The translations under genes and the position numbers were made by a program. The notes beneath the pieces are model-generated. The model had not been told where the DNA came from, searched no databases, and worked only from the letters and a program-made list of their open reading frames with translations. This document shows positions 84-21,562 of a stretch of 22,935 nucleotides of DNA, piece after piece (the first letter of the stretch is position 1; each line of letters opens with the position of its first letter). The stretch spans positions 1-22,935 of IMG/VR virus record IMGVR_UViG_3300020444_000010; one strand, written 5' to 3'. This DNA is from a virus.

Positions 84-716
84 TTAAAATTCAATACTAT
101 TAGCTCCTAATTGCCCACTACCTTTTATCCAATAATTGGCAGCAATCATAAGTCTAGTGGTGTCTGATTCATTTGGTGTAGTAAAGTGATTGACCCATCC
201 CGGAAATATAACTATATCACCAGATAAAACTGGTATATCCCAAACAACCGCATTCCATTTATTGATTTCACTATATGAAAAGGGAAAATAATAGTCTCTC
301 TGAAATATATTTTTTTCATCTGGCGCTTTCAATACTAAATTTCCAGATTCTGCTTTTGGATAATAACATACAGAAAAAATTGTACATGCGTGTTTATGTA
401 TAAAGTGACTATCACCTTTATGATTTACAGTAAGCCAACTTTCCGTTAGTTGTAATTCATTTGTACACGCCATAATCCTATCTTTAAAAATTTGTGCGTG
501 TTGATTTATTAAATCTTTTATTTTCTCTAATTTAGGGTTTTCTAAAAACTTACCTCTATCTACAAATACCTGAACCCCATTCGAACCGATCATTGGTTTT
601 GTGTTTTCTATGTATTTGTCAACAAAGTCTTGAGTGTCTTTATCAAAATTGCTATATGTGTAATTAACATTTTCTTTATAAACAGGAACACCCCAGAGGT
701 TATTATATAAACTCAT
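84..716 (-). CDS. 2OG-Fe(II) dioxygenase, 2OG-FeII_Oxy_5 type
   Basis: A 210-residue putative 2-oxoglutarate/Fe(II)-dependent oxygenase of the small type common in marine phages, expected to hydroxylate an unknown substrate using O2 and 2-oxoglutarate. Seen in the sequence: H107-K-H109 in the segment SHFIHKH, where the family places its first metal ligands, then the GNLVL strand, the FPGWVNH segment with H177, and R188, a candidate 2OG-binding arginine. I chose the ATG at 716. It overlaps the TGA of the upstream gene as ATGA and has GGAAG just before it; an in-frame TTG at 725 would add three residues. It is the last gene of the operon. The family call rests on motif order; the substrate is not predictable. 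The nearby collagen-like fibre is one candidate target, by inference only. Confidence 0.75.
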   Translation of the reverse strand: MSLYNNLWGVPVYKENVNYTYSNFDKDTQDFVDKYIENTKPMIGSNGVQVFVDRGKFLENPKLEKIKDLINQHAQIFKDRIMACTNELQLTESWLTVNHKGDSHFIHKHACTIFSVCYYPKAESGNLVLKAPDEKNIFQRDYYFPFSYSEINKWNAVVWDIPVLSGDIVIFPGWVNHFTTPNESDTTRLMIAANYWIKGSGQLGANSIEF

Positions 717-1336
717 CGCTTCCAATAATCTTCATTCCAATCCCCGTTATCATTCCAAATAAAATGGGCTACGCTTATCCTACAAGATTCTTCGCCACCA
801 ATTAGCGGCTCACTAGCGTGGTTAACAATAGATGGAAATATTATTGTACGCCCCTGTTTAAATTCTATTTTTACGTTTTGGTCCGGGAAACAAAACCCTC
901 CCCCCGTAAATTCACCCCAACCTAATAAAGTTATAGTAGTTATATCAACATTGTCTTTATGGGCTTTATATATTTGCCCCGGACAATAGTAATTTATTAG
1001 TATGCTATCATGATTAGATTCGAGTATTTTACCAAACACAACATCAAATTTCTCTAAATCCTCGCCAAGTTCCGAACTAAATATTTTCTGACCCATACAA
1101 AGTATAGGAGAGGACTCTCGGTTATTTCGTGGATACAAAGGGTCTACAAAAACACCGTTCCCGGTTTGTACAAAGTTACCATTCTCGTCTGTTGCTGAAT
1201 CGATTTTTTTAGCAGGTACCGAAAATCTTCTTAGATCTTTTATTTCTGCTAAAACTTCCTTGTGCTCTTCATCAGTTAAATAGTCATCTATTACTATGTA
1301 ACTTAAATTTTGTTCTCTGTGACAGGTTACTTGCAT
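713..1336 (-). CDS. 2OG-Fe(II) dioxygenase, prolyl-hydroxylase-like
   Basis: A 207-residue enzyme of the prolyl-4-hydroxylase-like 2OG-Fe(II) superfamily. The double-stranded beta-helix core is visible: the metal motif H126-x-D128 (in AHKDNVD), the GGGFCFPD strand, FPSIVNH with the distal ligand H173, and R186 in SCRISVAHF as the 2-oxoglutarate-binding basic residue. All catalytic positions are present. The start is set at ATG 1336, 9 bases beyond the previous stop codon and preceded by AAGGGG; a TTG at 1372 would add 12 residues overlapping the upstream gene. The C-terminus overlaps the next gene as ATGA, indicating coupled translation. The protein is clearly distinct from the dioxygenases on either side, so these are three different enzymes and not a recent triplication. 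Substrate unknown; peptidyl proline is plausible from family resemblance. Confidence 0.8.
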   Translation of the reverse strand: MQVTCHREQNLSYIVIDDYLTDEEHKEVLAEIKDLRRFSVPAKKIDSATDENGNFVQTGNGVFVDPLYPRNNRESSPILCMGQKIFSSELGEDLEKFDVVFGKILESNHDSILINYYCPGQIYKAHKDNVDITTITLLGWGEFTGGGFCFPDQNVKIEFKQGRTIIFPSIVNHASEPLIGGEESCRISVAHFIWNDNGDWNEDYWKR

Positions 1337-1344
1337 ACTACCCC

Positions 1345-1956
1345 TTATTTTAGCGCTGGGCCACCGGCCCAAACAACTAGAGAGTACCGCACTCCCTTAG
1401 TGACAGGAGTCACACGGTGCAAGGTATAAGATGGAAACACGGTAATAAGCCCCTTCTGCTTATTAACTGTCTCTGGCTCTGCTTTATCGAAAACCTGTAA
1501 TTCGCCTCCTTCATACTCAGACGGGTCAGACAGTTGTAAAACCATTGATAGTTTTCTTGGTACCTTGGTGTTGTCCCCCATATCAATGTGCCATGTGTAA
1601 TGTGCATCTATTTCGTCGTAAATGGTGAACTGCATGTCTTCACAAAAGCCGTACAGATCAAAGTTATAATACTGCGCGTTTAACTTATTCGCCACATCCG
1701 CCATGCATTCATAAATCCATGAAGTCTCTGGTGTGCGACTAAGCCAAGAGACTTTGGTTTTTCTTATCTGTTCAGGAGCCGGACCATCGTCGTTGCTTAT
1801 TGACGCGGGCATAGTCACCAATGCCTTGAGGTCCTCTTTTATTTGTTCGATATCTTCATCGGTAAAAGCATTTTCCCACCAAGCAAAGGTAGGATGGCGC
1901 CCCTCATGTACTACGGGGGGAAATATATAATTAGACACTCGGCTCACCTTTGCCAT
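1345..1956 (-). CDS. PKHD-type 2OG-Fe(II) hydroxylase
   Basis: A 203-residue protein resembling PiuC/YbiX-type PKHD hydroxylases and Rps23-Pro-64-type prolyl hydroxylases. Motifs in order: H123-x-D125 (WHIDMGD), the family's hallmark block RKLSMVLQLSDPSEYEGGEL (134-153), FPSYTLH with H180, and R190 in VRYSLVVW for 2-oxoglutarate. The active site looks complete. The start is uncertain. ATG 1956 overlaps the halogenase gene by 26 bases and lacks a clear ribosome site. A GTG at 1938 has AAAGGTGA six bases upstream and overlaps the halogenase stop codon by only 8 bases; it would shorten the protein by six residues. It is the first of three consecutive dioxygenase genes and lies directly after the halogenase. 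Substrate unknown. Confidence 0.82.
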   Translation of the reverse strand: MAKVSRVSNYIFPPVVHEGRHPTFAWWENAFTDEDIEQIKEDLKALVTMPASISNDDGPAPEQIRKTKVSWLSRTPETSWIYECMADVANKLNAQYYNFDLYGFCEDMQFTIYDEIDAHYTWHIDMGDNTKVPRKLSMVLQLSDPSEYEGGELQVFDKAEPETVNKQKGLITVFPSYTLHRVTPVTKGVRYSLVVWAGGPALK

Positions 1957-3409
1957 ATTGAGAAATAGCTTTGTTCATTTGTAGTAACTCAAAGTTGCTG
2001 TGCCTACCCCGATGTCTGTACATTTCGTTATTCGCATAGTGGTAGTTTAATGTCATCAAGTCGTCTGTGGCAGAGAGCCTAGAGGGAAAGCCTCCTTTAA
2101 TCCCCACACCTTCAAATAGAGATATCCAACTATGCTCATGAAATATAGCGCCGTCTGGCAAAAAACTTAAACTGTAGCCGAACTTTTCATATAAGCTAAT
2201 TCTTTCTATTAACTCCTCAGAGAGTTCTTGTTCTTTGACCATATCCCAAAACTTAGAGGTGTAAGTGCTGTTAAGGTAGTGGAGCCTTACAAAATCCATT
2301 GTCTCTTCGTATTTTAAAGTCATTCTAGCGTTGTGTGCTAAAATATCTGTCGAATTATAGAACCCCTTCCGTATTCTTCCAGTAAGGCTATAACCCGCAT
2401 CCTGTATTAAAGCAATACCTGAGGACTCTAAAGGCTCAACAAATCCAGAGGATAGCCCAATAGAAACAACATTACCTAACCAAGACTCTGAGTTAAATTT
2501 GGGTTCCCACCTAAGAACATTAAACTCTGCTAGTCTTCTATCGCCCCAAATAGAGTCAAACTTAATCTTTGCTTCTTCTACCGAAGTGATATTGGAGTTA
2601 AAGATAATTCCAGCTCCAATTCTGGATTGGATTGGTATTACCCACATCCAACCAATATCAAGGCATTGTGATATGGTGTATGGGCGCATTTCAATAGCTT
2701 CATCCACATACTTGACGGGGGCTGCGATAGCGATGTTTACAGGCATATCCCCTGATCGGTCTACCCATTTTGCGTGCTTGGTTGCCTCTGAAAAAACACT
2801 ACTCCATCCGGTGCAGTTAATAAACAAATCAGCTTTTATCTTAGTGCCATCTTTGAGGAGAACAGCTTCTATTTCAGAATCCGTATGCTCTACTTTTTCA
2901 ACAGCCTCCTCGAATATCTTAACCCCCACAACATTATTTTTTAGAAAAAGAGCTAGTTTTTTAGCATCTAAGTGATACCCAATACCCCCATCCACTTTGT
3001 TGTTTTCAACTGAACAGGTGTAGTTGATTAAACATTTCCTACTAAAAGAATCGTGGTCATCAGCTTCACTGGTATTTTTATGCAAAGAAACAGAGCTAGT
3101 CTGATCTACATATTGAAGCCCCGTAAAAGAGTGCCATATTTTATGCCCCTCTTTTACCCAGTCTTCGAACACAATCCCACACTTGTAAGTTCCTTCAACT
3201 TCGTTCAACCACTGGGCTTCGTTAAATCCACACTCCTCCATAAAGTGTACAAAATTAAGTAATGTAGCCTCTCCCACCCCTACGGATGGAATAGTTGGAG
3301 GATCAATAATAGATATTTCAAAGTGCGGGAGTTGATTTCGTATTAAAGCAGCTGTCAACCATCCGGCGGAGCCACCGCCGACAATACAAATTGACGATAT
3401 TTTTTTCAT
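1931..3409 (-). CDS. Flavin-dependent tryptophan-halogenase-family protein
   Basis: A 492-residue flavin-dependent halogenase of the tryptophan halogenase family (PrnA/RebH/VirX1 type), using FADH2, O2 and halide. Diagnostic elements are all present: the FAD-binding glycine motif CIVGGGSAGW (8-17), GVGEAT (44-49), a lysine in TYKCGIVF (K76) at the expected place of the catalytic lysine, the family-defining W-x-W-x-I-P (WMWVIP, 254-259), and EPLESSG with E328 at the expected place of the catalytic glutamate. Length matches the family. Phage members are established: VirX1 from a marine cyanophage is a broad-substrate iodinating halogenase. The gene lies between the 125-residue unknown and the dioxygenases in a fibre operon, and no flavin reductase is visible here, so the host would supply FADH2. 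Activity and substrate are not provable from sequence; the motifs argue against a decayed gene. Confidence 0.88.
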   Translation of the reverse strand: MKKISSICIVGGGSAGWLTAALIRNQLPHFEISIIDPPTIPSVGVGEATLLNFVHFMEECGFNEAQWLNEVEGTYKCGIVFEDWVKEGHKIWHSFTGLQYVDQTSSVSLHKNTSEADDHDSFSRKCLINYTCSVENNKVDGGIGYHLDAKKLALFLKNNVVGVKIFEEAVEKVEHTDSEIEAVLLKDGTKIKADLFINCTGWSSVFSEATKHAKWVDRSGDMPVNIAIAAPVKYVDEAIEMRPYTISQCLDIGWMWVIPIQSRIGAGIIFNSNITSVEEAKIKFDSIWGDRRLAEFNVLRWEPKFNSESWLGNVVSIGLSSGFVEPLESSGIALIQDAGYSLTGRIRKGFYNSTDILAHNARMTLKYEETMDFVRLHYLNSTYTSKFWDMVKEQELSEELIERISLYEKFGYSLSFLPDGAIFHEHSWISLFEGVGIKGGFPSRLSATDDLMTLNYHYANNEMYRHRGRHSNFELLQMNKAISQYGKGEPSV

Positions 3410-3450
3410 CTTCTTATTCTCTTATTATAATATTATTATTTTCTAGCTCC

Positions 3451-3828
3451 TTAGTCCGGTAGTGTCGGAGGATCCGGAGGTGGTGGAATAGTAACATCGC
3501 GATCCACTCCTATCATGTCTTTTAAACTTGTCATCGATGTATCAATGGCAGGGTCCTTAATCTTTTCTAGTAGGTCAAACCAAGGTGCCGGAGCCCTTAC
3601 CGAAATGTATTCGTCAAGAGCATCTCCCGTTAAGGCAGGTACATCAAAGAATGTGAGATTCATATCCGATATGCAAGTTTTGATGCTGCCATCCGAGTGA
3701 CGTATAATTTCACCTGTGTCTACGTCACGAACAGCTAAGTCTTCTTCTGTACTTACATCGCTATAATACCTGATTTCGGCACTGTGACCATCCTCTGAAA
3801 CACCTAAGATTCTGTATTTGATTTGCAT
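3451..3828 (-). CDS. Hypothetical protein with proline-rich C-terminus
   Basis: A 125-residue acidic protein that I do not recognise. The first half looks beta-rich (KYRILGVSEDGHSAEIRYYS) and the second half has an amphipathic helix-like stretch (WFDLLEKIKDPAID). It ends in a proline run, IPPPPDPPTLPD. It starts at ATG 3828 with TAGGAG upstream, ten bases after the stop of the collagen-like fibre gene. Its place directly after a fibre would suit a fibre chaperone or small virion protein, but no motif confirms this. It is followed by 41 AT-rich bases before the halogenase gene; these contain no convincing promoter or terminator. Confidence 0.7.
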   Translation of the reverse strand: MQIKYRILGVSEDGHSAEIRYYSDVSTEEDLAVRDVDTGEIIRHSDGSIKTCISDMNLTFFDVPALTGDALDEYISVRAPAPWFDLLEKIKDPAIDTSMTSLKDMIGVDRDVTIPPPPDPPTLPD

Positions 3829-3837
3829 ATTAAACTC

Positions 3838-5229
3838 CTAAGAAATAGCCCCGTTACGGGTGCCCGTTGAAATGTAAGAAATGTTTGAATTACCGGTAAC
3901 TGAATTACCTGTAGGACCCGCAGGACCTGTAGGACCTTGAGGACCTGTAGGACCTTGAGGACCAGTAGGACCAGTAGGACCAGTAGGACCAGTAGGACCT
4001 TGAGAACCCGGAGTAGTACCAGCTGGACCCGTAGGACCAGTAGGACCTGCTCCTGAAGGCCCTGCTGCACCTCCAGGACCTGCAGCAGGTCCAGGACCCC
4101 ATGCTGTTGGGCCGCAACTGCTACCAGGTGAACCTGAGTTCGCGTCGCCATTCGCCGCAGCTAACCCACCTGCTCCTCCGGCACCTCCATTCTGGGGGCC
4201 ATTGACATGATATCCGCCAGCACCACCTGCTCCTCCGGGACCACTACCACTACCGGCTGCGCCTGATGCGTAACCAGAGGCAGATGGTCCTTGAGCAAAA
4301 GTAGTTCCACCAGCACCACCAGAACCGCCGTAAGAGCCACCGCCGCCGCCACCGCCGCCGCAGGCCCACCAATTACCTGTATAATCCCAAGCACTACTTT
4401 GCCCTCCACCGCCACCGCCACCGCCGCGAAAAGTTCCACCCGGACCACCCGGACCTCCAGGACCAGCAGGACCGCCGGGGCCACCCGGACCGCCCGGACC
4501 ACCGCCGCCACCAGGACCACCTGGACCGCCTGGACCGCCGGGGCCACCCGGACCACCCGGACCAAGTCCTCCTGAAAGAGTACCAGAACCATTATCAAAA
4601 GTGACTGTTACCCCCGAGTTTGTATCAGCAGTAAATGCTGTTCCGCCTGTCTCACCCGGACCGCCTGTACCACCAGTACCGCCTGGATTACCTGTACCGC
4701 CTGTACCACCTGTAGGACCTGTACCGCCAGTACCGCCAGTACCACCTGTACCACCTGTACCACCTGTACCACCTGTACCGCCAGCAGAACCTTGGCTGCC
4801 ACTAGCGCCCGCGGTGCCGTAGTCTCCTCCTTTACCTCCTGCACCTCCGGGACCTGCCGCGCCCGTCGATCCAGTAGAACCGGGAGGACCGGTAGGACCG
4901 GTAGGACCGGTATCACCAGGAGTGGAAGAGGGAGTACCAGTTGGACCAGTTGAACCAGTATCACCAGTATCACCAGTAGCACCAGTGGCAGAAGCACCCC
5001 CGTACCCTGAAGCAGTTGCGGTATGCTTAATATAAATTTGCGATCCTGCTTTCCACGTCGTGCCGGTACGTATCGCAGGAGTACCTTCAGCAGTTGACCC
5101 TTGGTTAGTAGCAATCAGTGCTTCTACACGCACAGCATTAGGTGGAGCACCAGCCGCTGTATTAAGGTTGAGGTCATCCCCTGCATCAGGAGTTAACACT
5201 ATCAACGGTTCACCTGGAAGAAACATCAT
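3838..5229 (-). CDS. Collagen-like, glycine-rich phage fibre protein
   Basis: A 463-residue low-complexity virion protein. Residues 1-75 form a non-repetitive head ([19 protein letters not shown] onward), likely for attachment. Residues from about 76 show collagen-type G-x-y triplets ([23 protein letters not shown]), then a run of G-G-T, a G-P-G-G stretch, and polyglycine flanking an aromatic island [15 protein letters not shown]. Then come Gly/Ala-rich sequence with a second cysteine (GSSCGP) and a terminal run of GPT/GPQ triplets ending at [12 protein letters not shown]-like sequence. Collagen-like triplets are known in phage fibres as trimerising rods. The ATG at 5229 overlaps the previous stop as TAATG; a second ATG follows at once, and AGGAG lies upstream. 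Four oxidative enzymes are encoded downstream in the same operon, so this fibre is a candidate substrate (inference). Confidence 0.85.
3905..4014. repeat. 9-base tandem repeats encoding GPT/GPQ triplets
   Basis: Near-perfect 9-base units (GTAGGACCA or GTAGGACCT on the plus strand) repeat about a dozen times and encode the C-terminal G-P-T / G-P-Q collagen-like rod. Units are a multiple of three, so gain or loss would change rod length without a frameshift. Confidence 0.85.
4660..4791. repeat. 9-base tandem repeats encoding glycine-rich run
   Basis: Tandem 9-base units of the form TGTACCACC, with CCGCC and CAGTACC variants, run through this stretch. At least four consecutive identical copies lie near 4741-4777. 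On the coding strand they give G-G-T repeats. The repeats keep frame and are a likely site of slippage. Confidence 0.85.
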
Positions 5230-6533
5230 TATGCGGCTCCTCTAGACACTAACGAACCGTAGATATTAGTACCATCGTAAATAAATGCCAAAACGTCTAC
5301 TGCATTAGCCGCCGTAGACAGCACTGGAGCAGCGCCAGCCGACCATTTGAATATAGCGTTCCAAGTAACAGTTCTGCTGCCTGTACCATCTTGAGTAAGT
5401 CTTAACGCAGAAGAACCCACTGCAAGATTTGTAGGAGCTGCCATTGTTCTATTGTCTGCTATTGTCCAAAGGGCTATGTTTCCAAAAGCATGATCCCAAT
5501 TAACCGTAGCTCCATCTGTCAAAGTTTGTGTAGCATATACAGTGCCCGCATTTGCAAATGTATCCCAATGTGCTGTGTCTGAACTAAATGTACCTGAAGT
5601 ATGATCCGCGGAGGCTACATACACCGACCCACTTGAATTCACAATATCATTAACCTTGTAGGCAGTTGACGTTGCCCAATTGCCTTTCCAGTCCATTCCA
5701 CCAGAAAACTTCACCCATTTAGATGCGGCTAAATCTGTTGCAAACGTGCCCGAGGTGTGGCCTACCAGTGCTTTATATGTTTGACCGCCATAAGATAAAA
5801 CATCATCTACTTTATAGGCAGTAGTAGTAGCCCAATTGCCTTTGTGTTCCATACCATGTGAGAATTGATTCCAATACGCTGTGACTGTGGGAATGTTGCC
5901 CGTTGAATTTTGAATACAGATGTAAGTATTGGCACCATAATAGACGACATCATCTACTTGATATTCAGTATCGAAAGATAAAGCAACATCGTCAGTTAAA
6001 CTTTGTGCTGAACTTAATACTAAATTATTTTGATCTGTAACTGTTGATACTGTAACTGTTCCTGAAATACCTGAGCCAGTTACTACCATTCCTACAGCAA
6101 TAGTTCCAACGTTTGTGTCAACCACTAATGCTGTTGTACTCGAAGTTGTACCGTTAACTGCTGCTGTAGCTTCAGCGTACTGGCCTTCAAACTTAATACC
6201 TGTAGCGAGTAGCTCCCAATAGGTAGCGTTTGGAGGCGCAGTTCCTGCAGTTGTAAGAAGGATACATACATATGCATTATTGGCATGCTGCACCACTTCG
6301 TGAGGCTTGTATGCAGTTCCTGCAGCGTACTCACCTTTCCACGACAGTCCTTCCTGAACTAATGACCAGTAAGTTGTGTCTGTAGTTAGATTACCGGTTG
6401 CCGCCAGTGCATAAACATAAACGAACACGTCACCACCGTAACGCACTAAATCATTGGATTCATACTCGGTGCCTACGGCCCACTCCCCAGCCCAATTAAA
6501 TCGTAGTTTCCCTAGATCAATAGTTGTACTCAT
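5229..6533 (-). CDS. Tail fibre with carbohydrate-binding-like repeats
   Basis: A 434-residue fibre protein, first gene after a strong promoter. It has five repeats of about 50 residues resembling chitin-binding CBM5/12 folds, each with a W-x(4)-x-x-Y-x(3)-D/E-V-x-Y-x-G-x-x-Y core and a closing YW or W. They lie roughly at 13-60, 62-110, 114-226, 228-277 and 280-327. The third repeat is interrupted by about 65 residues rich in T, V and G (about 121-186, including [16 protein letters not shown]), an inserted beta domain. Residues 331-434 form a C-terminal domain ([25 protein letters not shown]) that resembles the end of the fibre encoded at 10601-11839. GGAGA lies before the ATG. Likely role: binding of surface polysaccharide; exact ligand unknown. 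Confidence 0.8.
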
Positions 6534-6556: not shown

Positions 6557-6585
6557 ATTATAGCAAACCCGACATTTTATGTCAA
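6557..6585 (-). promoter_or_regulatory. Perfect sigma70-type promoter with operator-like palindrome
   Basis: On the minus strand TTGACA (6580-6585) and TATAAT (6557-6562) are separated by exactly 17 bp, the full bacterial sigma70 consensus. The -35 box overlaps the inverted repeat GACAT-AAA-ATGTC. Transcription would begin near 6550, giving a leader of only about 17 bases to the ATG at 6533, with GGAGA inside it. It would drive the two fibre genes and the four-enzyme cassette. Confidence 0.85.
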
Positions 6586-10600: not shown

Positions 10601-11839
10601 TTAGCTACTCAGTGTCGAGGCTATCTGACCGTGCCAGATTGTGCCTCCATCTATAGTTTGAAAAACAAGAATATCCACACCACTTGCCGAAAGTGTAGGA
10701 GCTGTGGCCGCTGGCCAATCTACAGTACCAGGCCAAGTCACAGTTTGTGAACCACCATTTGTTAAAAATAAAACAAAACCACACAGCTCGTCTGATGCTG
10801 TAGGGTTTGAAAAGGTAAAAGTATTAGCTGAGGTATCCACTGTTGCACTTACGCAATTACCTGCTGCTATGTCTATATCTTGTGTGCCACCCCCAGTTCC
10901 ACCTATAGCATTAGTAACTTCGCCGTAGTCTAAAAGATTGGCTCTTTGTAATGTATTATCTGCAAAATTCTGTGTGCCTGTATAAGTATTTGCTCCCAAT
11001 ACTGCAGCAGTGCCTACGACTCCGGCTGCCGGTAATCCAGTAGCATTAGTTAACGTACCGGATGCTGGTGTTCCTAGAGCCGGAGTTACTAGAGTCGGAG
11101 ACGTAGCGAATACTGCTGCTCCAGAGCCTGTTTCATCGGATAAGGCTGTTGATAGTTGCGCAGAGGTGAACGACCCTAAGACGGCCGCATTGCCTGTAGA
11201 AGTTATATGTCCTGTCAGGTTTGCGTTAGTAGTCACGGTTGCCGCATTACCTGTTGTATCTTGGTTAAGTGTACCAATTACAAAGTCTAGAGTATTATCT
11301 GCATCTTCGTAAGTTACTGTGACATTTGTTTCAGTATTTCCACTAACCATTGCACCAACAGTATCAGCGATTTCTTCACTTAAATCTATGTCGGCTGAGC
11401 CATCAAAAGATACTCCGTGAATTGTTCTAGGTGTTGCTAGAGTTGTAGCATCTGCTGCCAGTGTTGCATTACCTGCAGTTAGCGAAGCCGCTGTTCCGGT
11501 TAGGTTAGTTGCTACGCCTGAAGCCGGTGTACCAAGAGCCGGAGTTACTAGCGTTGGGCTTGTGGCAAAAACCGCCGCTCCTGAACCTGTTTCATCTGAT
11601 AGCACTCCTGCTAATTGCGATGAAGTCGTAGCCGCAAACTGTGATAAGGGATTAGCTGTGAGACCTGCTCCTGTAGTTGCTAATGTATAGTAAGCAAGAG
11701 ATGTCCAAGCGGTAGAAGCGTCTCCTACTTTAAGTTTTCCAGTATCAGTTTCAAGGCCTAATTCTCCACTGGCTAAAGTGGGGTTAGCACTAGTCCAAGC
11801 GGAAGCAGTATCCCGTCTAATTTGTATAATATCAGCCAT
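10601..11839 (-). CDS. Tail fibre with Mtd-like N-terminal adaptor
   Basis: A 412-residue fibre. The first 50 residues (MADIIQIRRDTASAW, LASGELGLETDTGKLKVGD) match the N-terminal domain of the major tropism determinant type, a trimeric attachment head. Two internal repeats follow at about 80-108 and 233-261, with 29 identical residues in each (starting LSDETGSGAAV, ending LGTPASG). The C-terminal domain (GSQTVTWPGTVDWPAA, LVFQTIDGGTIWHG) is a fibre end shared with the 434-residue fibre at 5229. I prefer ATG 11839, which has GGAGGAG at good spacing, over ATG 11845, which directly abuts it. The gene overlaps the upstream stop by 8 bases. Likely a receptor-binding fibre. Confidence 0.82.
   Translation of the reverse strand: MADIIQIRRDTASAWTSANPTLASGELGLETDTGKLKVGDASTAWTSLAYYTLATTGAGLTANPLSQFAATTSSQLAGVLSDETGSGAAVFATSPTLVTPALGTPASGVATNLTGTAASLTAGNATLAADATTLATPRTIHGVSFDGSADIDLSEEIADTVGAMVSGNTETNVTVTYEDADNTLDFVIGTLNQDTTGNAATVTTNANLTGHITSTGNAAVLGSFTSAQLSTALSDETGSGAAVFATSPTLVTPALGTPASGTLTNATGLPAAGVVGTAAVLGANTYTGTQNFADNTLQRANLLDYGEVTNAIGGTGGGTQDIDIAAGNCVSATVDTSANTFTFSNPTASDELCGFVLFLTNGGSQTVTWPGTVDWPAATAPTLSASGVDILVFQTIDGGTIWHGQIASTLSS
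11057..11143. repeat. Second copy of 29-residue coding repeat
   Basis: Encodes residues 233-261 of the 412-residue fibre, identical in protein to residues 80-108. By hand comparison 19 of 29 codons differ, all synonymously. The repeat is therefore kept by selection on the protein and is not a fresh DNA duplication. Confidence 0.85.
11516..11602. repeat. First copy of 29-residue coding repeat
   Basis: Encodes residues 80-108 of the 412-residue fibre. It pairs with 11057-11143; protein identical, DNA differing at many third positions. Confidence 0.85.
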
Positions 11840-12305
11840 TGGCATCTCCTCCGTCTATCGATTGTGCTGCTGTGTAAATTGATGTAGCAGCTCCTCCGTC
11901 TGCTCTAATAAGGTGTTGTGAGAAAGACTCACCAGGGGTAAAAGCAACTGTTTGTATAATATCATCAACAGCTGCACCCGCTGCCAAGACTATACTTGTT
12001 CCACTAGTAGCGGTCACATCTGTTCCTACGACTAATTTAACCCCGTTTAAATATACATTTATAAGTCCTACTGTATAAGTAAGACCTGTAACAGTTGTTT
12101 GATCCGCTGTTGCAGTAGTAGTAGTAGTTGTAAATACACTACTTCCACCTGTACCTAATTCTACAATAGATTCAGTTCCATCATTTTTCTTGATGAACAT
12201 CTTACCGTCATAGGTATTAATACCTACTTCACCTAATGCAAGATCAGACGTGGTTGGTTCGGCCCCTTCGGTACTAGACCTCTTGAGCTTAATTACTTGT
12301 GCCAT
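11832..12305 (-). CDS. Small fibre protein with shared adaptor head
   Basis: A 157-residue protein starting MAQVIKLKRSSTEGAEPT followed by LALGEVGINTYDGKMFIKK, the same adaptor-type N-terminus as the fibres on both sides. Residues about 60-157 form a beta domain (GLTYTVGLINVYLNGVKLVV, TSIVLAAGAAVDDIIQTVAF) that occurs in many phage fibres as a small trimeric knob-like module. It ends in SIYTAAQSIDGGDANG. The GCCATATGGC palindrome covers the ATG, and GGAGAG sits upstream. It may be a short fibre or a piece of a composite fibre assembled with its neighbours. Function inferred from context. Confidence 0.75.
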   Translation of the reverse strand: MAQVIKLKRSSTEGAEPTTSDLALGEVGINTYDGKMFIKKNDGTESIVELGTGGSSVFTTTTTTATADQTTVTGLTYTVGLINVYLNGVKLVVGTDVTATSGTSIVLAAGAAVDDIIQTVAFTPGESFSQHLIRADGGAATSIYTAAQSIDGGDANG

Positions 12306-14870: not shown

Positions 14871-17800
14871 TTATACTGCGTCTAATGATAGCCAGTATTC
14901 TACTGCGTTTATTTTTATCTTTATTTTATGACTAGCTGTATACGTGCCAATAGCTTCAACGTCTTGTTTTAAAACTAAAGCTAGTGTAGAATTTCCTGTA
15001 CTAGTCACCCTATCGGCAAAAATAGAAATTTGGTCAGTAATTTGTCCACCTGCAACTCCTTCTGCTATATTTATACAATTACTACCTGTATTAGTAGCAG
15101 TACCTATGTTAAGATTACAGGGTTCGGTTCCATCTTCATCCCGTGACTTTATATCTACAGTGCCTCCAAAAACTGCACTTCTAGCGGGGATGGCCATTTC
15201 GCAATAAGTATTCCAACCAGTAGTGGCATAATTATCCGTAAGAGCATTGCCAAACCAGCCCCCAGCAGAGGCCGTGCCTCGAGAAGCACCCCCGACTCCT
15301 ATACCTCCGGTTCCACCAATTCCAGCTATACCACTCATCTCATCAGCAGTACCTTGAGTCCACATTACAACGGACTCACTCCCTATCGCTGCCCCTACAC
15401 CTAAATGGAACTCTCTACCTGTAGCCAGAGATGCATTAGAGCCCGCTTTTATTGTATCTACTTCAATTGTACCCGTTTTTATAGCTCCTCCATCAATTAT
15501 GGTAGCTGATTGGGTACCCTCTTCATTCATTGCGAGAGATAAATTAGTAAAAGTAACTAATCCATCAAATGATGTCCATGGAAATACAGCACTCATAGTT
15601 TCTGTATAAGCACCATCATATTCTGTTTCTTGAAAAACTACTTTTACAGCATGAAGTTTATTAGCCCTTGTATCACCACTAGCAGGAAGATCGGGAGGAT
15701 CATAGTCAGTATCCCAGCCTGCAGCGGTAGTTGAAGCTTCTGACTCACCAAAATCATAGGCTACTGTATATAGTGATGGGGCAGTAGGGGCAGTAGCTTG
15801 ATAATGATTATGAAAAAAGTATACTTGAGCATTACGAAGGGGCTCTCCGTCAGGTCCTGTAGCTCCAGTTTCTCCAGGTGTTCCGTCTTGTCCGTTTGTT
15901 CCGTCTTGTCCAGTATCCCCTTGATGAGACTTAGCAAAAGATTGCACTCTAGTAAATGTAGAAGTAGTTCCCGTAGCGTCTTTTACTGCTATATTATAAG
16001 TAATAGTAGCAGTATCTGCGCTCATACTATTATGAACACCATACCTTCTTATATTGGAAGAAACAGTTGAAGCACTACCAATAGATATACCACTTCCTGT
16101 TACACTAGAAATTACAAATTGACTATTACCTGTTCCATAATTTAATTGAGTCGTTCCCAACCAAGCGGTTATATCAGTACCTGAATTAGTATAAGTAACT
16201 ACTCCTGCTACAGTAACTGGAAGAGTATGAGCTTCATTACTTAAAACTGTAACTATTGCATCTGATCCAGCTTGAAGTCCTGAAGCGGTTATTTGATCTC
16301 TTGCATAAATTGTGCCTGAGCTAGATCCTTCTCGTATTTGTACTTCTATCTTTTCAGGCATAGAACTATAATTAGTCGGAGGAGTATAAGTGTAAGTATT
16401 GGTAGTAGTATTTTGAACACTAACATCATTCTTAAAAAACTGATAATAAGGAGTTCCAGTAGTATTCATAGCTGTTGATGTTACAACAGCACTTGTGGGG
16501 GAGGGAACAAGACCACTAGTATTATATTCAAAAGTTTGATCTCCCATTGTTAAATTAACAGCTCGTGCACTTGTTCCTGCAGAGCCATCAGCGCCTGCAG
16601 CTCCGTCAACTCCGTCGTCCGCAAACCTTCCTACAACCGTGGATCCTGACCAGTTAGCTGAGACACTGTCTCCCGATGAGGGATTTCCAAGAATAGCTCT
16701 TTGCGCTCTCCACAGAGCTTTATTAGAGGTTGTCATAGAAGGTGCCCCATCGTACCAAGGACTACTAGGACTATCGAACCCCCAAGAGTTACTTGGAGCA
16801 CTAGGAGAAGTATCAGAGTCAGAGGTTACTGCAAATATATATTCAATACCCGCTCCATCAGCTCCATCTGCTCCTTCAACACCGTCGTCTGCAAACCTTC
16901 CTACAACCGTAGAATCCGACCAGCTATCAGAAACAGCATCTCCGACATCGGGGTTTCCAAGAATAGCTCTCTGCGCTCTCCACAGAGCTTTGTTAGAAGT
17001 ATCTAACGAAGGGGCTGCGTCGCTCCAAGGACTTTGAGGACTATCGAACCCCCAATTATTATTTGGAGCACTAGGAGAAGTACCTGAGTCAGAGGTTTTT
17101 GCAAATATAAATTCAATACCCGCTCCATCATCTCCATCCTGTCCAGCAACGCCCTGAAGCCCAGTAGCTCCTGCGTCTCCATCGTCTCCAAACCTTCCTA
17201 CAACCGTGGAACCGGACCAGCTATCAGAAACAGCATCTCCGACATCAGGCGTTCCTTCAATATCTCTTTGGGCTCTCCACAGAGCTTTGTTAGATGTTGT
17301 CATAGACGGAGCCCCATCATACCAAGGACTGCTAGGTTGATCGAACCCCCAAGAGTTATTTGGAGCACTAGGAGAAGTACCTGAGTCAGCAGTTATTGCA
17401 AATATATATTCAATACCTACTCCATCCTCTCCAGCTGCTCCTTCAGCTCCATCTGCTCCAGCTACTCCATCAGCTCCAGGAGCGCTCATTACTACAGCAT
17501 CTGACCACTCTCCTATAGCAATAGTATCACTAGTAGTAGTGGAACTAGCTGTAGCTTGTCTTACCCATAAATAAGATCCTGCTGCTACTGTAGGAACTGT
17601 GGGAGTCCAGCTTTGTAAATTACCATCTGTAGCTACTGCTCCTGAGCTAAATGTATAAGTAACTGTACCAGTAAAAGCAGTAGGAGCAGTAGATCCATCT
17701 GTAGAGGCTCGATATAAAGATACTAAAGCGTTAGACCTGCCAGAAATTCCAGCTTCTGTATCTACATTAGTAAAGATAGAGTATTTTTCAAATGTATTAT

Positions 17801-18722
17801 TATTATTTCTTATAGTATAAACTAGTGAATCATAATCTGGATCAATCGTAAGACCTTGTTTTTTAATAGAAGAACCAGAAATAGCAGTAGTAAAAGTTCT
17901 ATCAATATTTAATGAAACATCTGAATCAATATAAGTAACTATACCCGCTTTTGTACTATTAAAGTATATTATGTCATCAATCTCATATTCAGTTTGAAAG
18001 TCAGTTCCATTACCTACTACTTCATTAGATTCAGCAGCTACTGTAACAGTGCCTGTTTGAGTTACAAAAGTGTCCTCTGCAACAACATCCCCATCTCCTG
18101 TATCATAAAAATATGGAATGTTTAAATTATTAGATGAAGAAAATACAGTATCTTCATATTTAATTAGTTTCCAAGGGTCATCAGCATCACTATAATCGAA
18201 AAGTATATAATGAGATTTAATTGCTTGTTCATCGTTTCCAAAAGTGCTAAAATCTAGAGAGGCTACATCTGTACAATCTTGTTCAAATCTATCTGTTTCT
18301 CCCGCATAAAAAGTGGTAAAAACTTGAGGAGCTCCTCCGCCTGCAAAAGACCAACTAGTTGTATTATCTACACTAAAAGTTCCACCAGTAATGGAAGTAG
18401 CTGAATTAATAACCCCACCTATACAAACCCTACCAAATCTTTTCGCAGTAGGATCTAAAGGTGGATTTTTTACTTGAAATTTAGTTATAATTTTTTCTGA
18501 TTTATGGCCTTCATTATTTACAGCTCGTACAGCAACTGAGTATTTTCCTTTAGGCAAAGGAAGAGGTCCACCAGAAGTTACACTAGGAGGTACAACAAGA
18601 GGATTGGGATACCCTGGAATATTATGATGGAGTTCATATTCTTTTAAATGCTCATATATACTCCCATCCGCATTTAAAGGTGGGTCCCAAAAAATTGATA
18701 CATTTTCTTCTTTTTGCGTCAT
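14871..18722 (-). CDS. Central tail fibre with tandem repeats and collagen-like linkers
   Basis: A 1283-residue protein that looks like the C-terminal half of a J-type tail protein carried as its own gene. Residues 8-85 form a fibronectin III-like domain (VSIFWDPPLNADGSIYEHLK, KGKYSVAVRAVNNEG). About 400-432 is a G-A-D/G-A-E collagen-like linker. Three tandem repeats of 90-100 residues follow at about 432-530, 532-621 and 622-718, each with IEYIFA, SPSAPNNSWGFD, SNKALWRAQR and STVVGRF. A second linker, GQDGTNGQDGTPGETG, is near 935-960. Around 1080-1095 AIKTGTIEVDTIKAG is typical of central fibres. The gene overlaps J by ATGA. Likely host-recognition fibre at the tail tip. Confidence 0.85.
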   Translation of the reverse strand: MTQKEENVSIFWDPPLNADGSIYEHLKEYELHHNIPGYPNPLVVPPSVTSGGPLPLPKGKYSVAVRAVNNEGHKSEKIITKFQVKNPPLDPTAKRFGRVCIGGVINSATSITGGTFSVDNTTSWSFAGGGAPQVFTTFYAGETDRFEQDCTDVASLDFSTFGNDEQAIKSHYILFDYSDADDPWKLIKYEDTVFSSSNNLNIPYFYDTGDGDVVAEDTFVTQTGTVTVAAESNEVVGNGTDFQTEYEIDDIIYFNSTKAGIVTYIDSDVSLNIDRTFTTAISGSSIKKQGLTIDPDYDSLVYTIRNNNNTFEKYSIFTNVDTEAGISGRSNALVSLYRASTDGSTAPTAFTGTVTYTFSSGAVATDGNLQSWTPTVPTVAAGSYLWVRQATASSTTTSDTIAIGEWSDAVVMSAPGADGVAGADGAEGAAGEDGVGIEYIFAITADSGTSPSAPNNSWGFDQPSSPWYDGAPSMTTSNKALWRAQRDIEGTPDVGDAVSDSWSGSTVVGRFGDDGDAGATGLQGVAGQDGDDGAGIEFIFAKTSDSGTSPSAPNNNWGFDSPQSPWSDAAPSLDTSNKALWRAQRAILGNPDVGDAVSDSWSDSTVVGRFADDGVEGADGADGAGIEYIFAVTSDSDTSPSAPSNSWGFDSPSSPWYDGAPSMTTSNKALWRAQRAILGNPSSGDSVSANWSGSTVVGRFADDGVDGAAGADGSAGTSARAVNLTMGDQTFEYNTSGLVPSPTSAVVTSTAMNTTGTPYYQFFKNDVSVQNTTTNTYTYTPPTNYSSMPEKIEVQIREGSSSGTIYARDQITASGLQAGSDAIVTVLSNEAHTLPVTVAGVVTYTNSGTDITAWLGTTQLNYGTGNSQFVISSVTGSGISIGSASTVSSNIRRYGVHNSMSADTATITYNIAVKDATGTTSTFTRVQSFAKSHQGDTGQDGTNGQDGTPGETGATGPDGEPLRNAQVYFFHNHYQATAPTAPSLYTVAYDFGESEASTTAAGWDTDYDPPDLPASGDTRANKLHAVKVVFQETEYDGAYTETMSAVFPWTSFDGLVTFTNLSLAMNEEGTQSATIIDGGAIKTGTIEVDTIKAGSNASLATGREFHLGVGAAIGSESVVMWTQGTADEMSGIAGIGGTGGIGVGGASRGTASAGGWFGNALTDNYATTGWNTYCEMAIPARSAVFGGTVDIKSRDEDGTEPCNLNIGTATNTGSNCINIAEGVAGGQITDQISIFADRVTSTGNSTLALVLKQDVEAIGTYTASHKIKIKINAVEYWLSLDAV
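16566..17430. repeat. Three tandem coding repeats in the central fibre
   Basis: Three consecutive units of roughly 270-300 bases encode repeats that share IEYIFA/IEFIFA, GTSPSAPNN/TSPSAPSN, WGFDSP, ALWRAQRAI and VVGRFADDG. The units are separated by short collagen-like spacers. Long near-identical DNA runs (for example around SNKALWRAQR) make in-frame unit gain or loss likely. Confidence 0.85.
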
Positions 18723-21562
18723 GATTTTATAATATTTAGATTTGTAATTGCAGGTACAAATTCTCCGGGAGGTAATAACGTATCTACATAAGGTTGCCCA
18801 AAATCAATATCAATATCATCGAATTTCTGATTATAATGTTCTACTGCTATTATATTATAAATATTTTTACCTCCGTCTTTAATATCTAATATTTTATACA
18901 TCTTCTTAGAAGCATCTGCTATAACTCCTGAAGCTGTAACAACTTCTCTTAACACCCAAATACTTTCTCTCTCAGGAGCTACACTAAAATGTGGAGTGGA
19001 AATACTCAAAGTAGCAGTAGCTCCATCGTCAGTATTGACTGATCCAGTTTCCACGTGAGTATAAGGCGCCCAGTTAATTTGTACTATAACATCGTCATCA
19101 TCTTGAATATTAGAGGCGGCTTCATTAGTAGTAAAGCCAGGAATTATATCCCCTCTTTCATAATCTACTGTACTTATAGTTGCTTTATCTTGTGCTAAAA
19201 AAGGTACAGGAGCGGATATAATAACACTTAAATCATAAGCACTTCCCGAATTAAGAGTAATAGTTCTGTCTAAAGGTATCACACCCGCAGTAATCTCTCC
19301 TGTGCTAGAAATTCTTCCGCTATATGCTACATCATATCTATCTGCGTCTTGAATATTAACAATGTCTCCAGGCGCTAGAAAGACCGCATTAAGTGCAGTT
19401 TTAAAACTTACAACTTCTGATTGATTAATCGCTGTCCATAGTTTCCAACGTCCATAACGCGTAGCTTGTCCTATAGAAGTGGCTCCAAATGCTACTGCCT
19501 CTTCTGAAATTATTTTTCCTGTTTCTACAATATTCTGTTTATCTTCTACTAAAAGAGCTTCTGGAGTGTAATCATTCTCAGGATTATTCCAAGTAACCAC
19601 CACCTGATTTGATCTTAATTTTGCCCCTGTTCCTTCATAGTTAAAAGCTCCTTCTATAACATTACCTTTTGTAAAGTTAAAAACAGGATCTTTTGCTTGA
19701 TCTACTACTGGGACAATATGACCTTCAGACCAATATAAAATAGCCCTAAAAGTAGTGGCCATATCTTTAATAACTTTATAAGACTCAGTAGCTTTTGTTA
19801 AATAAATATTTGCTTTAAATCTAGGCTCAGTACTTCCTTTCCCATCTGGGACTAATTCATCACAGTATCTTGCAATTCTATATAAAGTATATATATCAAA
19901 ATCTTTATATTTTAACCAAGAGCCTAATCCGTATCTACTATTATTAAGAATATCAAAAAATACCCAAGCCGGATTATCTGTATAAACAAGTTTAGATCTG
20001 AAATTACCATCCCAGTCTTGATCTTCAGAAGCGTCTACTACTCCTGAACCAGGGTCTCGTCTATAATTAGCAATTCCATCAGAGCTTTCCTCTCTAGTAA
20101 CATAATTACTAGGTACTAAAACTAGCCTTCCCCTACATAAATAAGATCTTTTAGGAACATTATTAAAAGTCTCTGCATCAACTCTTACATTAGCATAAGC
20201 TGTCCAAGGATAAGTAAATCTTTCTTTTACTATACAAACTGTACTGGCTAATGCTGAAGAAAACTGTACATTCATATGCCCTGGATCATCATAAGTACCA
20301 TCTTTATTTATTCCTACATCATCACGAGTACATTTAGTAATTTTTAATCGAAAATCAGTAAAAGGTTTAAATCTATCAAGATCTAAATTTTCTTGAATAT
20401 AAAAAGAATTATTTTGTTCTGCTCTATGATAGTAAAATTCTCCATCTACTCTATAATTAAAATAATCTACTGGATCCCCGAAACCAGAACCTTTATTAAT
20501 AGCTATTTCTATTTTATATGCTTGTAATCCATTATATATTTTTTGAGACTCATTACTACTTTGTATTAAAGCTGGATAGGAAAACACAAGTCTAACTTCA
20601 TCTACTTGACGAGCAGTAGAAGCGCTAAGATTCATATCAGCAGAAGTCAGATATATAGGAGTTCCTTCTGACTCATCTGGCCAAGTACTCCCTGCATCAT
20701 TATAAATAAAAGCATCCCCATGATTTGCAGTAATACTGGTAGAACCACCTCCATATATATCATGAATAGGAGGTTGATATAATGTTCCTTTTCTGAACTG
20801 ATATGAAAAACTTTTATATTTAGAAGTATCTGAAATTACATTATTATTTGTAAAACTAGAATGATGCTCAGCATCAGTAATATCACATTTATAAGTACCA
20901 GTAGGAACATTAGTAGCAGAAGATAAAGTTATAGCACTAGCAGTGTTACTAGCAATTTGATAAGATCCATCAATAATTACTTTATACTCTCCTCCAGTTT
21001 TATCTAAAAATTCATTTGGTATAACGCTTCCTGCAGGAACAGCAGTAGCTACAGTATTAGAAGTTATATTTGTTATATAACCAATAAAATAAGTTTTATC
21101 ACTAAGTTCTAATCGAACTACAGGTTGATTATTCGGAGAATTAGTAGGATCTTGTTTCATCCAACTTAGGAAAAAAGCAGAAGCTGCAGTAATTGTTATT
21201 TCGGGATTTTCAGTAGTAGTTGATCTAACTGCATTTGCCCCCGTTTGTCCAGTAGTTTCTATTATTCTTAAATATTTTCGGCCTGTTGAAGTACCTCCTG
21301 TAAAACTAGAAAGAGTTTCATTTGCAACAGATACTGCAGTAGTTCCATCAAAAGTAAAATTAGCTGGTCCATTAGATAAATGTTGTCCCGCCTGACTTTC
21401 ATCAGCCGCAGCACTACTATCTAAATATATTGAAGATGACCCTTTTACTAAGCCATCAATAGGCCCTTCTGAAATTATATCAGTACAAGAAATATATTGA
21501 TTCTTATTTATGGTGCTTGTAGGCATTGATGCACCAGTTATGCCGTGAATCATTATACTCAT
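18719..21562 (-). CDS. J: Tail tip / host-specificity protein, lambda J-like
   Basis: A 947-residue J-type protein that forms the tail tip hub. Landmarks in order: SEGPIDGLVKG near 32-42 (a J start hallmark); NPAWVFFDILNNSRYGLGSW near 530-550; LYRIARYCDELVPDG near 560-575 followed by EPRFKANIYL; ATTFRAILYWSEGHIVPV; and VAFGATSIGQATRYGRWKL near 687-706, then FLAPGDIVNIQD. These match lambda J's conserved central region closely. Lambda J is 1132 residues and includes C-terminal fibronectin domains; here the equivalent part is the separate downstream gene, coupled by ATGA. The start overlaps the I-like gene by ATGA. High confidence in the family; receptor unknown. Confidence 0.93.
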   Translation of the reverse strand: MSIMIHGITGASMPTSTINKNQYISCTDIISEGPIDGLVKGSSSIYLDSSAAADESQAGQHLSNGPANFTFDGTTAVSVANETLSSFTGGTSTGRKYLRIIETTGQTGANAVRSTTTENPEITITAASAFFLSWMKQDPTNSPNNQPVVRLELSDKTYFIGYITNITSNTVATAVPAGSVIPNEFLDKTGGEYKVIIDGSYQIASNTASAITLSSATNVPTGTYKCDITDAEHHSSFTNNNVISDTSKYKSFSYQFRKGTLYQPPIHDIYGGGSTSITANHGDAFIYNDAGSTWPDESEGTPIYLTSADMNLSASTARQVDEVRLVFSYPALIQSSNESQKIYNGLQAYKIEIAINKGSGFGDPVDYFNYRVDGEFYYHRAEQNNSFYIQENLDLDRFKPFTDFRLKITKCTRDDVGINKDGTYDDPGHMNVQFSSALASTVCIVKERFTYPWTAYANVRVDAETFNNVPKRSYLCRGRLVLVPSNYVTREESSDGIANYRRDPGSGVVDASEDQDWDGNFRSKLVYTDNPAWVFFDILNNSRYGLGSWLKYKDFDIYTLYRIARYCDELVPDGKGSTEPRFKANIYLTKATESYKVIKDMATTFRAILYWSEGHIVPVVDQAKDPVFNFTKGNVIEGAFNYEGTGAKLRSNQVVVTWNNPENDYTPEALLVEDKQNIVETGKIISEEAVAFGATSIGQATRYGRWKLWTAINQSEVVSFKTALNAVFLAPGDIVNIQDADRYDVAYSGRISSTGEITAGVIPLDRTITLNSGSAYDLSVIISAPVPFLAQDKATISTVDYERGDIIPGFTTNEAASNIQDDDDVIVQINWAPYTHVETGSVNTDDGATATLSISTPHFSVAPERESIWVLREVVTASGVIADASKKMYKILDIKDGGKNIYNIIAVEHYNQKFDDIDIDFGQPYVDTLLPPGEFVPAITNLNIIKS

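Follow-up and report, generated by a model that had tools for sequence, protein, structure and literature searches.

The window analyzed in this work is the whole of the IMG/VR virus contig IMGVR_UViG_3300020444_000010 (22,935 nucleotides), and close to one end it carries a tail-fibre operon on the minus strand (84-6533). The operon encodes a collagen-like, Gly-rich fibre (3838-5229), a flavin-dependent halogenase (1931-3409) and three 2-oxoglutarate-Fe(II) (2OG) enzymes, named here after their open reading frames (ORFs) as ORF3 (1345-1956), ORF2 (713-1372) and ORF1 (84-725). Our main finding is that relatives of ORF3 stand beside Gly-rich or collagen-like fibre genes. This hydroxylase-fibre pairing is general and strong, and the counts given below support it strongly. 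We consider it probable, with some reservation, that ORF3, likely helped by ORF2 and ORF1, hydroxylates the neighbouring fibre, which would make the operon a phage-encoded cassette for fibre maturation. The operon structure, the intact active sites, the conserved synteny, the proline enrichment of the fibres and the predicted fold of ORF3 were computed, and from them we infer the fibre as substrate, the residue hydroxylated, the timing and the benefit.

Of the four samples used, two were defined as follows. The enzyme-anchored sample comprised 95 viral contigs found by the ORF3 sequence alone, and the enzyme-blind sample 112 Gly-rich fibre loci chosen by a DNA pattern for Gly-rich stretches. 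Fibres were scored as Gly-rich with at least 35% Gly in 60 amino acids (aa) and as collagen-like with at least 10 Gly-X-Y; loci counted as well flanked when at least four genes stood on either side. A Gly-rich or collagen-like ORF lies within three genes of the ORF3 relative in 74 of the 95 loci (20% for other genes there), and such a fibre is found at that distance in 44/49 well-flanked loci. Where both occur, the fibre is within two genes of the 2OG gene in 92% of cases, against 34% expected and a maximum of 50% in 2000 permutations in which fibre labels were shuffled within loci. In the enzyme-blind sample a 2OG gene lies within three genes in 55/112 loci, and 57 loci have any 2OG gene, so placed beside the fibre in 55 of them. 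The original prediction had set such co-occurrence as a check, and had named a cassette equally frequent without the fibre as the opposite outcome; for the 2OG family the co-occurrence is strongly positive and the opposite outcome does not hold, but the halogenase has a Gly-rich fibre within three genes in only 10 of 47 well-flanked loci and comes close to the opposite outcome. In tail loci anchored on the unrelated J protein, a 2OG gene was present in 1/18 only. An unsupervised count of neighbours in Gly-rich loci placed the 2OG superfamily second, behind phrog_7759. Among complete named phage genomes with Gly_rich_2, 8/9 have a 2OG or halogenase gene within 3 kb (2.3 expected, P=1e-4), while the per-genome combined P for the same nine isolates is only 0.07; they are not a random sample, because they were reached via enzyme searches.

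The order of fibre and enzyme is also conserved in the ORF3 tree, in which some branches are long and their exact position unsure. One set has mostly a fibre downstream (42 Gly-rich and 2 collagen-like of 49). The set that contains the window (22 rows, support 99/93) carries a same-strand fibre upstream in 18/22; among the four exceptions, one contig begins at the enzyme (L207) and in another the collagen frame was missed by the gene caller (L246). Relatives with 33-60% identity keep the fibre-enzyme order across different phage backgrounds. A strict requirement for collagen was tried and proved too narrow, most partners being Gly-rich with short Gly-X-Y runs. Matches to PF21722 (Gly_rich_2) occur in several of the partner and isolate fibres. 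The original prediction named a collagen-like fibre as the partner; the unit is broader, most partner fibres being Gly-rich adhesin-like proteins. Among the loci that keep the order is L244:9923-18034, in which a J-like tail tip protein has a collagen-like stretch near its end, and an ORF3-type 2OG gene starts 4 bp later.

ORF3 (minus strand) encodes a 2OG-Fe(II) hydroxylase (PF13640, 6e-17) with a predicted protein-prolyl-hydroxylase fold. Residues H123, D125, H180 and R190 (H-x-D, distal H and R) are invariant across 59 sequences. The AlphaFold2 model has a predicted local distance difference test score (pLDDT) of 92.5, and its best fold matches are the Pseudomonas putida prolyl 4-hydroxylase (P4H)/EF-Tu, PHD2 and PiuC. 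The fold search returned 4iw3, PHD2, 3dkq and PiuC among the top matches, with template modelling (TM) scores of about 0.6-0.75. The frequency of PHD2 among these matches says little, given how often this protein has been deposited in the PDB; the sequence profile points to PiuC/3DKQ and P4H as well. The prolyl-hydroxylase fold of ORF3 is confidently modelled, and its activity on protein proline is putative. The PKHD-type PiuC, the Shewanella 3DKQ protein and P. putida P4H are its best matches by both sequence profile and fold, but have only about 20% identity to it, and the P. putida structure was determined with EF-Tu, not with a virion protein. ORF2 (minus strand) is a predicted 2OG-Fe(II) oxygenase (PF13640, 4e-6) with the H-x-D...H...R motif intact in the alignment, and its closest relatives are in loci with Gly-rich fibres. 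ORF1 (minus strand) is likewise a predicted 2OG-Fe(II) oxygenase, of the PF13759 type (5e-13; phrog_81, 5e-33), keeping in the alignment the H-x-H of that type, not H-x-D, and the distal H. Two of the three enzymes had been described as prolyl-hydroxylase-like; all three do fall in 2OG families, but only ORF3 is clearly of this kind.

The proposed substrate is a protein of 463 aa (3838-5229, minus strand) with weak matches to tail-fibre PHROGs. It has perfect Gly-X-Y runs of 31, 16, 12, 6 and 6 triplets, and these long uninterrupted runs bear out its earlier description as collagen-like. We use this label and not Pfam collagen because the fibre matched no Pfam family at E<=1, hence neither Collagen (PF01391) nor Gly_rich_2 (PF21722). 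Between the Gly-X-Y arms lies a core that is rich in Gly and has W/Y loops (AWDYTGNWW); the Gly-rich part has 42% Gly and contains 2 His, 4 Trp and 7 Tyr. The local G+C content of 63% contrasts with about 41% in the surroundings. Of 47 Pro residues 22 precede Gly, and in the triplets Pro occupies 29/71 X positions and Thr 32/71 Y positions.

Fibres next to 2OG genes are rich in proline. Among the non-Gly residues of Gly-rich fibres Pro accounts for 10.8% beside 2OG genes versus 3.9% without these enzymes (p=1e-15), and for 10.7 versus 3.4% in the enzyme-blind subset (p=5e-8). The enrichment persists when each sequence cluster counts only once (p=3e-7) and after adjustment for G+C (t=9.9). The commonest Pro contexts in fibres beside 2OG genes are NPG, GPT, GPG and SPG. 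X-Pro-Gly is the prolyl-4-hydroxylase context, and Y is the position used by the animal enzyme; in collagen-like fibres of the ORF3-anchored loci, Pro makes up about 16% of the residues at Y. In GPT collagens, Lys at Y reaches 11% beside 2OG genes versus 1.4% (p=0.004; 13 vs 18 proteins), X-Lys-Gly being the animal lysyl-hydroxylase context. GPT collagens beside 2OG genes with Lys at Y were seen in L092, L094, L114, L171 and L175. The Pro enrichment of partner fibres remains a correlation, one that indirectly favours protein proline as the target of ORF3.

The genes are arranged as one transcription unit, in agreement with the original prediction, all of whose genes were found where it had placed them. 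The order of transcription is a CBM5/12 fibre (6533-5229), the collagen-like fibre (5229-3838), a small ORF (3828-3451), the halogenase (3409-1931), ORF3 (1956-1345), ORF2 (1372-713) and ORF1 (725-84). The two fibre genes have 1 bp in common, the gaps are 9 bp between fibre and small ORF and 41 bp between small ORF and halogenase, and the genes for the halogenase and the three dioxygenases overlap one another by 13-28 bp. The stated order, a fibre followed by a halogenase and three 2OG genes, holds, but the small ORF (3451-3828, minus strand, 125 aa) intervenes between fibre and halogenase. It has no Pfam or PHROG match and no similarity to small ORFs at the equivalent place in other loci, and a role as chaperone is a guess. 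A terminator scan gave about as many matches as shuffled sequence did (7 versus 5.3), none of them between the fibre and enzyme genes, where the original prediction had seen no terminator. The operon may extend beyond base 84, because the window is the whole contig and ends soon after ORF1. The first gene (5229-6533, minus strand) encodes a tail fibre with four CBM5/12 repeats (PF02839, E=5e-20; phrog_9851 tail fibre, 3e-41). Directly upstream of it, and hence of the operon, is a predicted sigma70-type promoter (6557-6585, minus strand), TTGACA-17-TATAAT with TG before the -10 (extended -10), a 12/12 match to the consensus.

We propose that the operon is a module of fibre plus finishing enzymes. 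ORF3, probably aided by ORF2 and ORF1, would hydroxylate the fibre encoded just upstream, most likely at prolines in X-Pro-Gly and before the chains trimerise. Such hydroxylation would make the helices more stable and equip the host-binding surface with hydroxyls. Halogenation of aromatic residues in the same fibre by the halogenase is a further possibility, but a much less certain one. Several observations weigh against this proposal. The evidence consists of genes, composition and models, and the hydroxylation chemistry is itself predicted. The prolines of the window fibre are mostly at X (GPT), with the GPG part readable in either register, and Pro at X is the pattern of ordinary bacterial collagens. 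Near and far Gly-rich fibres within single loci have equal Pro (18 pairs, p=0.2); action in trans allows this but does not predict it, and the enrichment may be a phage-wide property rather than an effect of adjacency. GPT-collagen phage fibres, in a set with many incomplete loci, lack a 2OG gene nearby in 80/91 cases (11/91 have one). In marine phages there are other 2OG genes that lie far from fibres, and the ORF3 relatives of Melnitz-1 (L442) and AG-345-E15 (L446) have no Gly-rich fibre nearby; in the latter a short halogenase directly follows the 2OG gene. The partner-fibre model is poor (pLDDT 62) and not classifiable by fold.

The whole cassette could act on the fibre, the 2OG hydroxylases and the halogenase together yielding hydroxylated and halogenated adhesin residues. 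The halogenase (minus strand, 492 aa) is of the VirX1/PrnA type (PF04820, E=4e-93; phrog_2928, 1e-99). It has the motifs of a flavin-dependent tryptophan halogenase, an inherited name in which tryptophan is only a presumed substrate. Its motifs are conserved: GGGSAG (G11-G16), W254-x-W256-x-I-P (P259), K76 and E328-S329, of which we take K76 to be the catalytic lysine and E328-S329 the glutamate-serine pair of PrnA/RebH. In favour of joint action, the gene lies between fibre and hydroxylases in one operon, and the closest relative we found (L001, 49% identity) has its start 30 bp beyond a Gly_rich_2 fibre. The closest solved relative by profile is VirX1 (6QGM), which we identified as Syn10 CPUG_00131; Gly-rich fibre ORFs precede it and a 2OG cluster follows. 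S-RIM44 and P-TIM40 have the same order of fibre, halogenase and 2OG cluster. The VirX1 active site is large and open, and neither a pathway nor a native substrate is given for it (PMC8407142). Gly-rich fibres near halogenases are also His-rich (4.5% vs 0.5%, p=1e-6; 9 clusters, p=6e-4), strongly so in L005, L006, L014, L025 and L061. Against this stand the rarity of fibres near halogenases, the tandem halogenase pairs of L028-L050, a differing viral context with no Gly-rich fibre nearby, and the few His, Trp and Tyr in the Gly-rich part of the window fibre. His may mark one fibre lineage, and to our knowledge it is not an established substrate of flavin halogenases. With 37/47 evaluable loci having no Gly-rich fibre within three genes, the halogenase was rejected as a general fibre partner, and its pairing with fibres is suggestive only. 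Fibre halogenation is kept as a rather unlikely alternative, because of the scarcity of fibre-adjacent loci and because His-richness is poorly explained by known mechanisms; it extends our preferred explanation and does not exclude fibre hydroxylation. The idea that these enzymes modify the fibre is partly supported: synteny and Pro enrichment favour it on the hydroxylase side, and it is weak on the halogenase side.

The enzymes may instead hit host targets such as EF-Tu, ribosomal proteins or surface glycans, or serve metabolism, the fibre region being a hot spot for cargo genes. The best fold match of ORF3, the P. putida enzyme with EF-Tu, speaks for this and counts against fibre hydroxylation, as do the many 2OG genes away from fibres. 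For the 2OG genes of cyanophages, a role in nitrogen signalling or DNA repair has been proposed (PMC3037559). But a hot spot predicts neither the Pro enrichment of the neighbouring fibre nor the deep conservation of gene order, and 2OG genes are rare in the J-anchored tail loci; we judge it possible and not likely. Most of what is known of the halogenase superfamily comes from natural-product pathways, and the cassette could make or tailor a small halogenated, hydroxylated metabolite, as bacterial tryptophan halogenases do. This was suggested for cyanophage prnA, assigned to antibiotic protection (PMC2984593), but is improbable here: no other biosynthetic gene is present in the contig, the operon is structural, and the 2OG family is fibre-linked. 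Chance or an assembly artefact, conceivable for a cassette at the end of a single metagenomic contig, is refuted by the recurrence of the fibre-2OG arrangement in many independent contigs and isolates, and we give it almost no weight. Beyond the window, hydroxylation of fibres by neighbouring 2OG enzymes can be generalised only tentatively: clusters of 2OG genes, sometimes with halogenases, may put hydroxyproline, hydroxylysine and halogenated residues on Gly-rich or collagen-like adhesins as a widespread virion maturation in marine and freshwater phages.

Virus-encoded collagen hydroxylation is known from giant viruses. Common to both are a viral 2OG hydroxylase for proline-containing viral proteins and a collagen-like viral protein, but giant viruses infect eukaryotes, whereas here a tailed phage has the enzymes in a fibre operon, where ORF3 is accompanied by the flavin halogenase and by ORF2 and ORF1. 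PF21722 is linked to S16-type Gp38 adhesins with polyglycine-II helices. The partner and isolate fibres that match it share this domain with these adhesins, while the window fibre differs in having no PF21722 match and in its long Gly-X-Y arms. VirX1 shares with the window enzyme its halogenase family and its place beside a Gly-rich fibre and 2OG genes, but comes from a T4-like cyanophage, and the aligned cyanophage halogenases are about 30% identical to the window enzyme. Among cellular systems, the Bacillus anthracis P4H is active on (PPG)n peptides, and the exosporium protein BclA is collagen-like (PMC8968730). The structure of this P4H (5HV0) matches the ORF3 profile, but in sequence ORF3 stands closer to the PKHD-type hydroxylases.

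Genes for 2OG-Fe(II) oxygenases are frequent in marine phages and are usually filed as auxiliary metabolism (PMC3037559, PMC4164917, PMC9599517), and viral use of P4H has been called cryptic, with collagen tail fibres and chlorella-virus P4H mentioned (PMC9301287). In the literature covered, which left subscription papers and preprints largely aside, we found no paper tying phage 2OG enzymes or halogenases to fibres. The link to adhesins, both physical and compositional, gives phage 2OG genes and VirX1 a concrete candidate substrate. A widespread maturation system, if it exists, would account for many 2OG genes now called 'auxiliary metabolic' and would supply the native substrate that VirX1 lacks. 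If the link to adhesins holds, phage host recognition would rest partly on post-translational chemistry that needs oxygen, iron and perhaps halide, to which genome-based host prediction would be blind.

Other genes accompany these loci. A protein family of about 140 aa (phrog_7759, MAHFAKLG...), for example L321:7694-8143 and in 47 other loci, lies at most three genes from a Gly-rich fibre in 50/50 cases and may be a chaperone for the fibre or a structural partner of it. The 2OG genes of uncultivated pelagiphages are accompanied by a 'ferrochelatase' (PMC9599517), the PHROG of which is found in the 2OG cassettes here too (phrog_2954/3531; L208:11087-11704 and L439:7501-8091). This annotation may be wrong, because phrog_3531 can be aligned with 2OG enzymes over its C-terminal part. 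Gene 48 of S-SSM5 (L439:9907-10425), annotated as 'leprecan-like' (prolyl 3-hydroxylase), is in a 2OG cluster downstream of fibres.

The large genes of the window are all on the minus strand, and their content is that of a siphovirus tail. A lambda-J-like tail tip protein (18719-21562, minus strand; phrog_31, E=6e-114) marks the tail module. Beyond it come one large fibre, several small fibre genes and a fibre-assembly chaperone, and then the operon. The large fibre (14871-18722) also has short collagen-like stretches (PF01391, weak), and another fibre (10601-11845) has an N-terminal Major tropism determinant domain (PF18454).

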